Below are positions 52,149 to 61,090 of a stretch of DNA of 64,000 nt, piece after piece. Numbering within the stretch: position 1 is the first letter of the stretch; every line of letters begins with the position of its first letter. The position numbers and the translations under genes were made by a program. The DNA is from Burkholderiales bacterium (GTDB taxonomy: Bacteria > Pseudomonadota > Gammaproteobacteria > Burkholderiales > Nitrosomonadaceae): positions 420,420 to 484,419 of the forward strand of contig JABTUQ010000001.1 of NCBI GenBank assembly GCA_015075225.1, read 5' to 3'. The notes under the pieces were generated by a model, which worked only from the letters and a program-made list of their open reading frames with translations, did no database searches and had not been told where the DNA came from.

Positions 52149-53094
52149 TAGGGTTTGTTCTCAATCATGCGAATAGCTGTTGCCATATGCAATTGACGCC
52201 GAATAAATCGTTCACGGTCAATGACATGGCGAAGGGCTGTTCACAGTGGATGAATTGATGGTCATCTCCTGACTTTTGCGCAGGAGTCAGGATGGACCGG
52301 ACGATGCGATCGAGATGACCAGTGGCAATGCATTGAGCAGCTATTGCCGGGCAAGAAGGGCGATCCTGGCTGTAGTGCGAAGGACAAACTGACGCTTTGT
52401 CGAAGCCGTTCTCTGGATCATGCGTACCACTTCCGCAGTCCGTGGCGTGACCCGCCCGAAGAGCTTGGGCATTGGCATCGGACAGACGTCCGCTTCTCGC
52501 GCTGGCGCGAGATCAAGGTGTCTGGGAGCGCGCAGCACTGCAAGGCGATCGATGACACGCCCGCATTTGTTCATTGACTCGACCATCGTGCGCCCACCAG
52601 CACCGCTGGCGCCCAAAAAAAGCAGGCCAACAGGGACGTGTTGGCCGTTCACGGGACGGACTGACCACCAAACTGCATGTCGGCGTGGATGCCTCGGGCA
52701 ATCCGCTGCGGATAATTCTCTCGGCCGGACATCTATCAAGCCGATATCGGACAAGCGACCGCACTGATCAGGGATCCAGCCCGTCAAGAGACATTCTGTT
52801 CCGGTGGCCGACAAAGACCATTCTGAAACGGATGCCTTCGTCACCGGATGAGGTACAAACCAAGGCAGAATCAGGGCGGTCATCCTGCCACTCCCAACAG
52901 ACTCAACTCCGCGCACGTTCGACCGCCATATCTACAAGAGCCGCAATCAGATCGAGCGTTTCTTCGCACGTATCAAGCAAAATGCAGACGCATCGCCGCG
53001 GGATCTACGACAAACTCGCACAATCCTTCCTGTCGTTCGTCCAGCTAAGCTTCTGCGCTATCGTCTGGTTGATCTTGATTGAGAACACACCCTA
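52149..53094 (+). mobile_element. IS5-family (IS427-type) element with broken transposase
   Basis: Ends GGGTTTGTTCTCAATCA (from 52151) and, on the other strand, GGGTGTGTTCTCAATCA (to 53092) match at 16 of 17 positions and are flanked by TA. The transposase (about 52290-53090) is recognisable in mixed frames: IEQLLPGKKGDPG, HLFIDSTIVR, LTTKLHVGVDASGNPLRIILSAG, YKSRNQIERFFARIKQ, YDKLAQSFLSFVQL. Several indels break the frame. Whether these are real decay or sequence errors is unclear, as the same density of indels affects the next genes. Confidence 0.8.
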
Positions 53095-53095
53095 A

Positions 53096-53840
53096 GGGTC
53101 TGTTGACGTTTTGAGCTGGCACCAATAAGGAGGAGCAAACTCCCGTAATATTGAGGTTCCCATACCACCAACAAAACGAGTTTGCGATGTCCCGACTGAT
53201 GCTCAATGACGAACTGTGGTCGAAGCTGAAGAAGATTCTGCTTCAAGAAGCGATTTATAACAAGCGCAACCTGCGCATGGCAGTAGAAGGCATGCTGGAT
53301 CGAAACGCGGGTTGACTGCAAAAGCCGTGGCGAGACTTGCCCGCGCATTCCAACGCTGGCATCAGTGGCACCGGACTTTCGTCCGCTTCTCGTGCTGGCG
53401 CGAGAAAGGTGTCTGGGAGCGTGTGGCAACAGCACTGCAAGGCGATGCTGACATGGAGCATTTGTTCATTGATTCGACCATCGTGCGCGCCCACCAGCAC
53501 TCCGCTGGCGCCCAAAAAAGGCCAACAGGAAATTGGCCTTTCACCTCGCTAATTGACTGACCACCAAACTGCATATCGCTGAAGTGGATGCAACATCTCA
53601 ATCCGCTGCGGATAATTCTCTCGGCCGATATTTTCAGATTACCGATATCGAACAAGCCCCGCACTGATCAAGGATCAGTCCGTCAGAATCTGTTGTGGCT
53701 GACAAGGGTTTACGACTCGGGATTGCCTTCCCGTCACCGCGATTACAAACCAAGGCAGTCAGGCGGCCATCCCGCCACGCCCAACAGACTCAACCCGCGC
53801 ACGTTCAGACCGCCATATCTACAAGAGCGTAATCTGATCG
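53096..53840 (+). mobile_element. Second IS5-family element, broken and lacking its right end
   Basis: It begins GGGTCTGTTGACGTTTT immediately after the first element. A good N-terminal frame at 53187 encodes MSRLMLNDELWSKLKKILL. From about 53320 the sequence closely parallels the first element (WRDLPAH, FIDSTIVRAHQHSAGAQK, NPLRIILSA, PNRLNPRTF) with many indels. It ends near 53840, within the region before the catalytic Glu, with no right terminal repeat. Confidence 0.75.
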
Positions 53841-54143
53841 TGCAGCAGCGTGGCGACCCAGTGCCCTTGTTATCGCCGCTACTGGGTTGCTTCACACCTT
53901 CGGTGTTCACAAAGACGGCAGTGATGGTGTTACCGGGTTGCTTCCTGATTACTGGGTTACCACGTCAGCCCGAGATTTCCCCGCAATAACAGGTCAATTC
54001 GCAAAGACAGCAAGGTAGTTGCGGGATTGCTTCGTTTTTACGGGTCTGCAATGAAGGAATTTGTTATATCGCAGTCTCCCCTGCCATTTTCCCGCTTGAC
54101 TGCCCATGGCTCCCCAACAAAACTCTTTGTTATACTCGTTCGC
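53841..54143. other. Gene-free spacer upstream of rapZ with short internal repeats
   Basis: These 303 bases hold no convincing gene. ACTGGGTTGCTTCA, ACCGGGTTGCTTCCTG and TACTGGGTTAC repeat within 53880-53965. A GATTGCTTCG...TGCAATGAA stem-like sequence near 54025-54055 resembles the REP-type palindromes common in proteobacteria. In many betaproteobacteria hprK precedes rapZ; no trace of it could be read. Confidence 0.4.
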
Positions 54144-58832: not shown

Positions 58833-58855
58833 AACTGGCAATTGTTGTCGTCGAA

Positions 58856-59519
58856 TCAGTTCAGCAGGGATGGCGGGTTGTAGCTGATCACGATGGTAGC
58901 CAGACGTTTGTTCAGGCCCATGACCGGGGACAACCAGCAATTTCTGTTGTTCACGTCCGATTTGATAGTGATGTAACTGCAGCCAGGCGAACATCTTGGG
59001 GATAAAGGCTCGCAGCCTCTTCACTTTCCAGTTTTTTATCAGTTGATACCAGCAATTTGCCTTCGTCACTGATCAATACAACGCGTTCGGTATCCCTCGT
59101 CTTAACCAGTTCGGTCAGATACTGGTCGATCTGGTCCAGATTGTTACGAATCAGCTCGCCACGCACAGCCCATGCCAGCACCTGACCAAAGCGTTCTTCT
59201 TCCTTTTTGTATTGGCTGTCCGCATATTCGCGCGCTTTTGTAACCAGTTCCTTGCTCTTTTCCTCAAGCTGCTGCGCGATCTGGGCCTGCCCTTTTTCCA
59301 GCCGTGACTCAGCCTGGTTTACCGCAATTTGTTTCAGATGAACACCAGCAGCAATATGCCCAGAAAAACCAGCAATGCCCATGAAGGCAACTGTTTGTGC
59401 TGCAGGTCGGCAATTGGCGCAAACTTCTTGCCCAGAATATTGAATAATGAAGCGGGCTTGGTCCATTCGATCTTGTCTTTGGACTGGTCGCCCTCGTTCT
59501 GCGTGTATTGATCCGACAT
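58856..59519 (-). pseudogene. Single-pass membrane protein with coiled coil, unknown function, frameshifted
   Basis: I do not recognise the family. The ATG at 59517-59519 starts a charged cytoplasmic N-terminus (MSDQYTQNEGDQSKDK), then one membrane segment (LPSWALLVFLGILLLVFI). After a shift near 59335 follows a long Gln/Glu/Lys-rich coiled coil (ESRLEKGQAQIAQQLEEKSK) and a mixed domain with VVLISDEGKLLVSTDKKLES. After another shift near 58985 a last frame ends at 58856. The layout, one membrane helix plus a coiled coil and a PAS/Cache-like beta segment, suggests a sensor or envelope scaffold, but no function is claimed. It is divergent from argH. Confidence 0.55.
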
Positions 59520-59702
59520 GAATTGCTCCTTCGTTAATGGTGACTCGATGAAAGGCGCTAATTATCCACCATTCCCAATCACAGGGAAAGCAGCGCTGTC
59601 AATAAACAGCGCATATTATGCATATGTGTTGCGAAATCTGCCAGTCGATTCCTTCCGGGTTGCGGGTAAAATACAGGGTTTCAACAAACGACAGACATTT
59701 CC

Positions 59703-61090
59703 GTGGAAAAAGATAAAAAAACCTGGTCGGGACGTTTCAGCGAACCGGTCGCATTACTCGTACAACGCTATACCGCATCGATCGGATTCGATTACCGGCT
59801 GGCCGAGTACGACATCCAGGGCTCGCTCGCGCACGCACGCATGCTGGCTGCCACCGGCATCATCCAGCCTGTCGATCTGGCCGCCATTGAGCAGGGATTG
59901 GCACAAATCCGTGGAAGAAATCCGTAATGGCCAGTTTGAATGGCAGCTCGAACAGGAGGATGTCCATCTGAACATCGAACGGCGTTTGACCGTGCTGGTG
60001 GGAGATGCTGGAAAGAGGCTGCATACTGCCCGCTCACGCAACGATCAGGTGGCCACCGACATCCGGCTCTATCTGCGCGCCGCGATCGACGAAATTACTG
60101 ATCTCATCCATGCGCTGCAGCATGTACTGCTGGATCTGGCAGAGCTGCAAGCCAACGATCATGCCCGGATTCACCCACCTGCAGGTGGCTCAGCCCGTCT
60201 CCTTCGGGCACCACCATCTGCTCGCCTATTACGAAATGTTGCAGCGCGATGGGCAGCGCCTGCAAGATTGCCGAAAACGGGTCAATCAACTGCCGCTGGG
60301 CGCAGCCGCGCTGGCCGGCACCAGCTATCCCATCAATCGGCAGCAGGTTGCGCAGGAACTGGGTTTGATGATATCTGCCACAACTCGCTGGACGCCGTTT
60401 CCGATCGTGACTTTTGCGATCGAGTTCTGCGCCAGCGCAGCACTCATCATGATGCACCTTTCCCGCCTGTCGGAAGAACTGATTCTCTGGATGAAGCCCG
60501 GCATTCGGTTTCATCCGGCTGGCAGACCGGTTCTGCACCGGCTCATCCATCATGCCGCAAAAGAAAAACCCGGACGTACCCGAACTGGTGCGCGGAAAAA
60601 CCGACGCATCAACGGCCATCTGGTCGCCTTACTGACATTGATGAAATCACAACCATTGGCGTACAACAAGGATAACCAGGAAGACAAGGAGCCGCTGTTT
60701 GATACCGTCGATACCCTGAAGGATACCCTGACCATTTACGCCGACATGTTGGCCGGCCTGCATGTCAACCCGGAAGCCATGCGCCAGGCAGCGCAGCGCG
60801 GTTATGCCACGGCCACTGATCTGGCCGATTACCTGGTCAAGAAAGGTACGCCGTTCCGCGATGCGCATGAGATTGTGGCCCAGGCAGTGCGGTTTGCCGA
60901 AACAAAGGGGTGTGACCTGAGCGAACTCTCTCTGGCCGATCTGCAGCAATTCTCTGTAAACATCGAACAGGATGTATTTGCGGTACTGACGCTGGAAGGC
61001 TCCCTGCAAAGCCGCAATCATCCCGGTGGTACGGCACCGGAGCAGGTACGCGCGGCCATCTGCCGGGCCCGTTCACTATTGCCCGGATAA
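59703..61090 (+). pseudogene. argH: Argininosuccinate lyase, full length with several frameshifts
   Basis: ArgH cleaves argininosuccinate to arginine and fumarate. GTG at 59703 starts [16 protein letters not shown]. Later frames give DVHLNIERRL and [19 protein letters not shown], then [47 protein letters not shown], the family signature [12 protein letters not shown] near 60550, and from about 60645 an unbroken C-terminal frame [20 protein letters not shown] to the stop at 61088-61090. At least five shifts occur before 60645 and none after. Length of about 462 codons is normal. Confidence 0.88.

Follow-up and report, generated by a model that had tools for sequence, protein, structure and literature searches.

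Six genes of a housekeeping block, rapZ, recG, ridA, murA, a membrane-protein gene and argH, are broken by small indels near the end of a bacterial contig. Are these genes decaying in the organism, or only in the deposited letters? We studied the block in its window, i.e. the whole stretch of 64,000 nucleotides that was analysed, which spans bases 420420-484419 of contig C1 (484,419 b) and is the final 64 kb of that contig. The genome (2.48 Mb, 19 contigs) is that of a Nitrosomonas whose closest named species is N. europaea. Among the best 80 of 204 loci, the named organisms closest in their RecG to the intact version are N. europaea ATCC 25978, at 86%, and N. eutropha Nm 57, at 84%. The DNA at 34-45 kb of the window is 79% identical to N. 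europaea, hence we take the source to be a different Nitrosomonas species; outside the block, this DNA comparison covered the window at 34.0-53.9 kb, with a match of 79%. In the excerpts of the literature that were searched, no paper names this assembly. The reading that we favour, with a probability of about 95%, is that the frameshift cluster is an artefact of sequencing or assembly, by which a single locus came to be represented two times in the assembly, at the ends of the neighbouring contigs C1 and C3. The frameshifts are then most likely present in the deposited letters and not in the organism.

Table. Features of the window, with positions counted from its first base; C3 positions are given where marked.
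Feature	Position	Strand	Remarks
True left flank of the block (C1 sequence just left of rapZ in relatives)	46384..49014		Relatives' order
Two IS5-type element copies, error-rich	52150..53841		Compared with L003/L004; low-quality tract starts here
C1/C3 overlap (dovetail of two contigs)	53845..64000 vs C3:46489 down to 36253		10383-column alignment, 90.0% identity
Frameshifted tract, C1	54222..60645		Substitutions interleave C3-version and N. europaea alleles
rapZ	54144..55012	+	Broken in C1, intact in C3; Pfam RapZ N and C domains
recG	54997..57036	-	Broken in C1; C3 open over 680 codons, matching N. europaea from residue 22
ridA	57085..57468	-	Broken in C1; intact in C3, 129 aa
murA	57560..58800	+	Broken in C1; intact at C3:41521-42765
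Membrane protein	58856..59519	-	Broken in C1; intact in C3, 221 aa; without Pfam match
argH	59703..61090	+	N-terminal part intact in C3 only; C-terminal part intact in C1 only
Good-quality C1 end	60646..64000		Same stretch broken in C3
Fructosamine-kinase family gene	61130..62041	+	Open in C1, broken in C3
Dynamin-like GTPase gene	63157..64000	+	Truncated by C1 end

The frame breaks that a sequence-only reading had reported in the six genes are confirmed. Relative to the intact versions, rapZ, recG and the membrane-protein gene lie in 3 reading-frame pieces each, ridA in 2 and murA in 4, i.e. 2-4 pieces in each of the five genes left of argH, and argH itself is in several pieces. Open frames of at least 250 aa cover 0.26 of the sequence at 52-56 kb and 0.31 at 56-60 kb, against 0.62-1.00 in the thirteen earlier 4-kb bins. 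The same reading had estimated roughly 20 indels, which is too low: when C1 is compared with both C3 and N. europaea, 40 indel events are private to C1 between 54383 and 60602, and 37 of these are not multiples of three. Thirty-five of the 40 fall inside the six genes (rapZ 4, recG 8, ridA 4, murA 10, membrane protein 2, and 7 in argH up to 60645) and 5 are intergenic. A per-base count had indicated no homopolymer enrichment, and this was overturned by counting events: deletions private to C1 show an excess in runs of at least four (6/24 against a background of 5%, p = 0.001) and insertions do not (0/16). The enrichment of deletions thus resembles sequencing error. Most C1 indels nonetheless lie outside homopolymers, in runs shorter than four for 18/24 deletions and all 16 insertions, and hence no single sequencing technology is indicated.

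When the tract was searched against its own genome it gave, besides the IS copies and short repeats, a single match, at 92%, on contig C3 (46,489 b). The alignment of the two contigs runs from contig end to contig end: it starts at the last base of C3, ends at the last base of C1 and takes up the final 10,156 bases of the latter. Each version of the block stops with its contig on one side, and only one flank per version is visible. We compared all against all 30 contig-end or small-contig sequences, four of which consist entirely of N; among the 26 comparable ones there is no other overlap of this kind and size.

The two versions are complementary in quality. Up to ~60.6 kb C1 is broken and C3 intact; past this point the roles are exchanged, with C1 open. 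The left part holds 5 indels private to C3: three are 3 or 6 bases long, and the other two affect one base each, in an intergenic position or at a gene edge. Right of 60645 the C3-private events number 73, of which 46 lie within 60646-62041 or from 63157 on, against 9 private to C1; these fall in spacers, an element remnant and the contig end, or next to them, and one affects the final bases of the kinase gene. The sharp stop that had been noticed within argH near 60645 is borne out on both contigs, since the last C1 lesion on the left is at 60602 and the first C3 lesion in argH at 60648. Each contig therefore has one good and one bad part of the overlap, with the change-over in argH.

This change-over bears on the fate of the genes. 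The sequence-only reading noted that loss of murA should be lethal without a second copy, and proposed a search for intact murA, recG, rapZ and argH elsewhere in the genome. The first three are intact in C3, where murA scores 575 bits and has no internal stop, whereas C1 gives only fragments of it. The fourth, argH, is whole in neither contig. A search of the genome with an argH model gave two matches over the cut-off, both partial, one on C3 (positions 1-309) and one on C1 (146-452, open but with compensated indels). No further argH copy exceeds the cut-off in this genome; two other places, on C13 and C12, score 60 and 19.5 bits respectively, well short of it. Joining the good part of each contig yields a gene of 461 codons, whose product aligns to N. 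europaea ArgH without gaps at 91.8% identity. Hence, rapZ, recG, ridA, murA, the membrane-protein gene and argH are very probably single, intact and ordinary in the organism.

Is the locus single in relatives? In N. europaea (L026) and in genome G012 (L106) only small inserts interrupt the block, and both flanks are in one piece with it. In G001 and G020 the block is divided between contigs: L107 and L109 carry its left part with the left flank, L108 and L110 its right part with the right flank. In all four relatives holding the left part, the sequence found left of the block is that of the window at ~46.4-46.9 kb; it is no more than 0.2 kb away from the block in L026, L107 and L109, and in G012 the matches to 46389-47017 and 48063-49014 sit at least 0.8 kb before it. 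The left-flank matches keep the same order and direction throughout L026, L106, L107 and L109, and the left flank agrees between G001 and G020. On the other side, C3 sequence beyond the end of C1 lies next to the block in all four relatives holding its right part: C3 below 36253 is matched over 3.6 kb in L026 and 4.3 kb in L106, and continues for 0.6 kb after the right part in both G001 and G020. Relatives thus carry the left flank of C1 and the right flank of C3 around one block, from which it follows that C1 and C3 adjoin. As far as this can be shown short of reads, synteny and the dovetail geometry indicate that the overlap stretch is present once in the organism. The 49.0-53.8 kb of C1, which includes the two IS copies, was not seen beside rapZ in these relatives, and the join there therefore rests on C1 itself.

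Some observations on the surroundings of the block can be recorded here. In G001 and G020 the split of the block falls at the end of murA, at ~58.8 kb. A repeat of ~105 bp (window 53842-53950) sits at the exact end of C3, has three more copies in C3 (at 29.9, 30.1 and 31.4 kb) and shorter matches on C13, C14 and C17. A short dispersed repeat of ~85-200 bp occurs in the window at 8540-8626, 46231-46370 and 47955-48038, and at L111:10306-10508; 42 further places are listed in the genome, and it is repeated in N. europaea also. Between the kinase and dynamin-like genes, the stretch 62038-62788 has relatives within this genome, on C16, C13 and C1, at 73-77%, is absent from the equivalent place in N. 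europaea and contains a 142-codon frame without Pfam match; it is perhaps a remnant of a mobile element. Among the other contig ends, C16 from its first base (C16:1-2019, L139) matches the end of C17 (L157 9795-11794) over 2.0 kb at 77% with 8 gap openings, stopping ~0.2 kb before the end of C17, and the end of C2 matches the start of C19 over 375 columns at 81%. A 2.4-kb match between C13 (9700-11998 of L137, which is C13:1-12000) and C5:8798-11174, at 86% with 108 gap openings, is possibly another noisy version of one sequence.

One might suppose that the two versions are a true duplication of 10 kb, each copy of which is decaying where the other is not. They are indeed 90% identical and each is broken where the other is intact. 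Yet, such a duplicate would have to stop exactly at both contig ends, its flanks match one locus in relatives, and argH would be lost. The substitutions are also at odds with it. Terminal branches are 0.006 for C1 against 0.101 for C3 in the left part, and ~0 against 0.094 in the right part, which is unexpected for copies of equal age; the private substitutions of the two versions do not fit a common age. Moreover, C1 carries N. europaea alleles. A duplication is thus highly improbable, and the real decaying duplicate that had been held out as the exciting alternative is contradicted: the second version is the same locus on the neighbouring contig, as indicated by the geometry of the ends, the single block of relatives and the split argH.

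Plain read error was rejected as the whole cause of the C1 tract: ~8% of the aligned bases distinguish C1 from C3, and at 343 of the 393 such positions on 54.1-58.8 kb the C1 letter is the one found in N. europaea. Across 54245-60645 there are 1111 sites that distinguish C3 from N. europaea; C1 agrees with C3 at 633 of them, with N. europaea at 460 and with neither at 18. The two kinds of allele alternate in 419 runs, where a random order would give 534 (z -7.1); adjacent sites thus tend slightly to agree, and the alternation is not fully random. The share of N. europaea alleles is 0-0.19 before 54.8 kb, 0.32-0.61 at 54.8-60.4 kb and 0.18 at 60.4-60.8 kb; beyond 60.8 kb it ranges over 0-0.40, a measure blurred there by the noise of C3. 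The alleles of two parents are thus interleaved in the C1 tract, with few private substitutions. Pseudogene decay of C1 was rejected on the latter ground: its own substitutions in the six genes are few and spread evenly over codon positions (17/18/17), whereas C3-only substitutions fall at 51/43/325 of 419, i.e. 78% at third positions, as in working genes.

Could the broken tract belong to a second strain in the sample and be true to it in all but its indels? The C3-only differences of the left part, mostly at third codon positions, are what one expects between strains. But a second strain should have substitutions of its own, of which C1 has few, and the derived states common to C1 and N. europaea outnumber those expected from the best tree. 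Polarised with three outgroups, derived sites are common to C1 and C3 only in 105 cases, to C1 and N. europaea only in 42, and to C3 and N. europaea only in none. In 200 alignments simulated on the best tree, with sites treated as independent and without a codon model, the second class numbered 14.5 +/- 3.7 (maximum 27) and the third 10.9 +/- 3.1 (minimum 3). Since both observed counts lie outside the simulated range, descent along the best tree is rejected, and a consensus interleaving two sources fits. A mixture of strains in the consensus fits these data and a pure second strain does not, which makes the latter very unlikely.

Interleaved alleles might also be expected if the resident had truly recombined with N. 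europaea at a fine scale, breaking the genes in the process. However, the longest run of a single kind is 142 bp and the mean run 2.6 informative sites, 40 indel events would have struck a block of housekeeping genes, and an intact version of the same locus exists. We give this explanation almost no credence, nor any more to its variant in which a real second copy, shaped by recombination with N. europaea at the scale of tens of bases, decays while the other copy decays complementarily.

The bad stretch of C3 is of another kind. In the right part, which comprises the end of argH, the kinase and the dynamin-like gene, C1 and C3 differ evenly over codon positions (55/47/44), with 104 private sites in C3 and 2 in C1. 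The C3 base is that of N. europaea, G001, G020 and G012 at 9, 9, 11 and 13 of 108 C1/C3 differences, and at 2, 2, 3 and 3 of a second set of 55. This looks like noise, not decay. Pseudogene decay of the right part of C3 was rejected because the 2 private sites of C1, against 104, are probably fewer than the silent change that a working copy of equal age would have gathered. The two bad stretches have different error profiles, and therefore no one simple cause explains both.

Returning to the artefact that we favour, C1 and C3 would be neighbours on the chromosome that were left unjoined, with ends overlapping by 10.2 kb. The bad part of C1 (~54.2-60.6 kb) would be a consensus that mixes the resident with an N. 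europaea-like strain and keeps small indels uncorrected; that of C3 (C3:36253 to ~39673) would be uncorrected noise. The mixture in C1 is established statistically, and it presumably originated in the reads. Its N. europaea-like alleles might come from a second strain in the sample or from a reference used in correction. The reciprocal pattern likely arose because correcting reads were drawn to the better-matching version and left the other uncorrected. The sequence-only reading had preferred a low-quality contig end. This is supported, with two amendments: 60646-64000 is good, so that the bad tract lies just inside the end, and the substitutions show that two sequences were mixed in the consensus of the tract, for which plain read error does not account.

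The assembly break itself was likely caused by the repeated IS copies at 52-54 kb. Both IS5-family copies are damaged, as had been noted. Compared with the open copies L003 and L004, which are identical and open over 302 codons, 52150-53096 shows 89.0% identity with 29 gap openings, and 53096-53950 shows 88.3% over 489 columns with 14. We compared six of the eleven other IS-sized places (L003-L008, on C1, C12, C15 and C17): two are identical and open, and the four others differ by only 2-9 mismatches but 8-18 gap openings. Copies that differ mainly by indels suggest that repeats were left uncorrected elsewhere in the assembly too.

Annotated as deposited, this genome would show pseudogenes in place of several essential genes, two copies of the block and a broken argH. 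Asking whether the apparently decayed version has substitutions of its own, and whether the alignment ends at contig ends, helps to separate such artefacts from real gene decay.

The locus can be compared with three known situations. Like a decaying segmental duplication, it shows two diverged versions, one of them broken, but it departs from this case in its flanks, the geometry of its contig ends, the missing own substitutions and the split argH. Strain-mixed consensus is a notion used for assemblies of mixed samples. The likeness lies in the alleles of two related genomes being interleaved in one contig; here, however, the second source differs from the resident at ~16-18% of aligned bases, which is beyond a close strain, and the mixing is confined to ~6.4 kb. 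For assemblies of mixed-strain samples, HyLight (PMC11458758) offers a comparison. Gene-fragmenting indel errors in long-read assemblies are the subject of the Kastor paper (PMC12007338). As in the cases treated there, small indels break otherwise complete genes; unlike them, the broken stretch here is present in another version on an overlapping contig, and its substitutions also reveal mixing with a related species.
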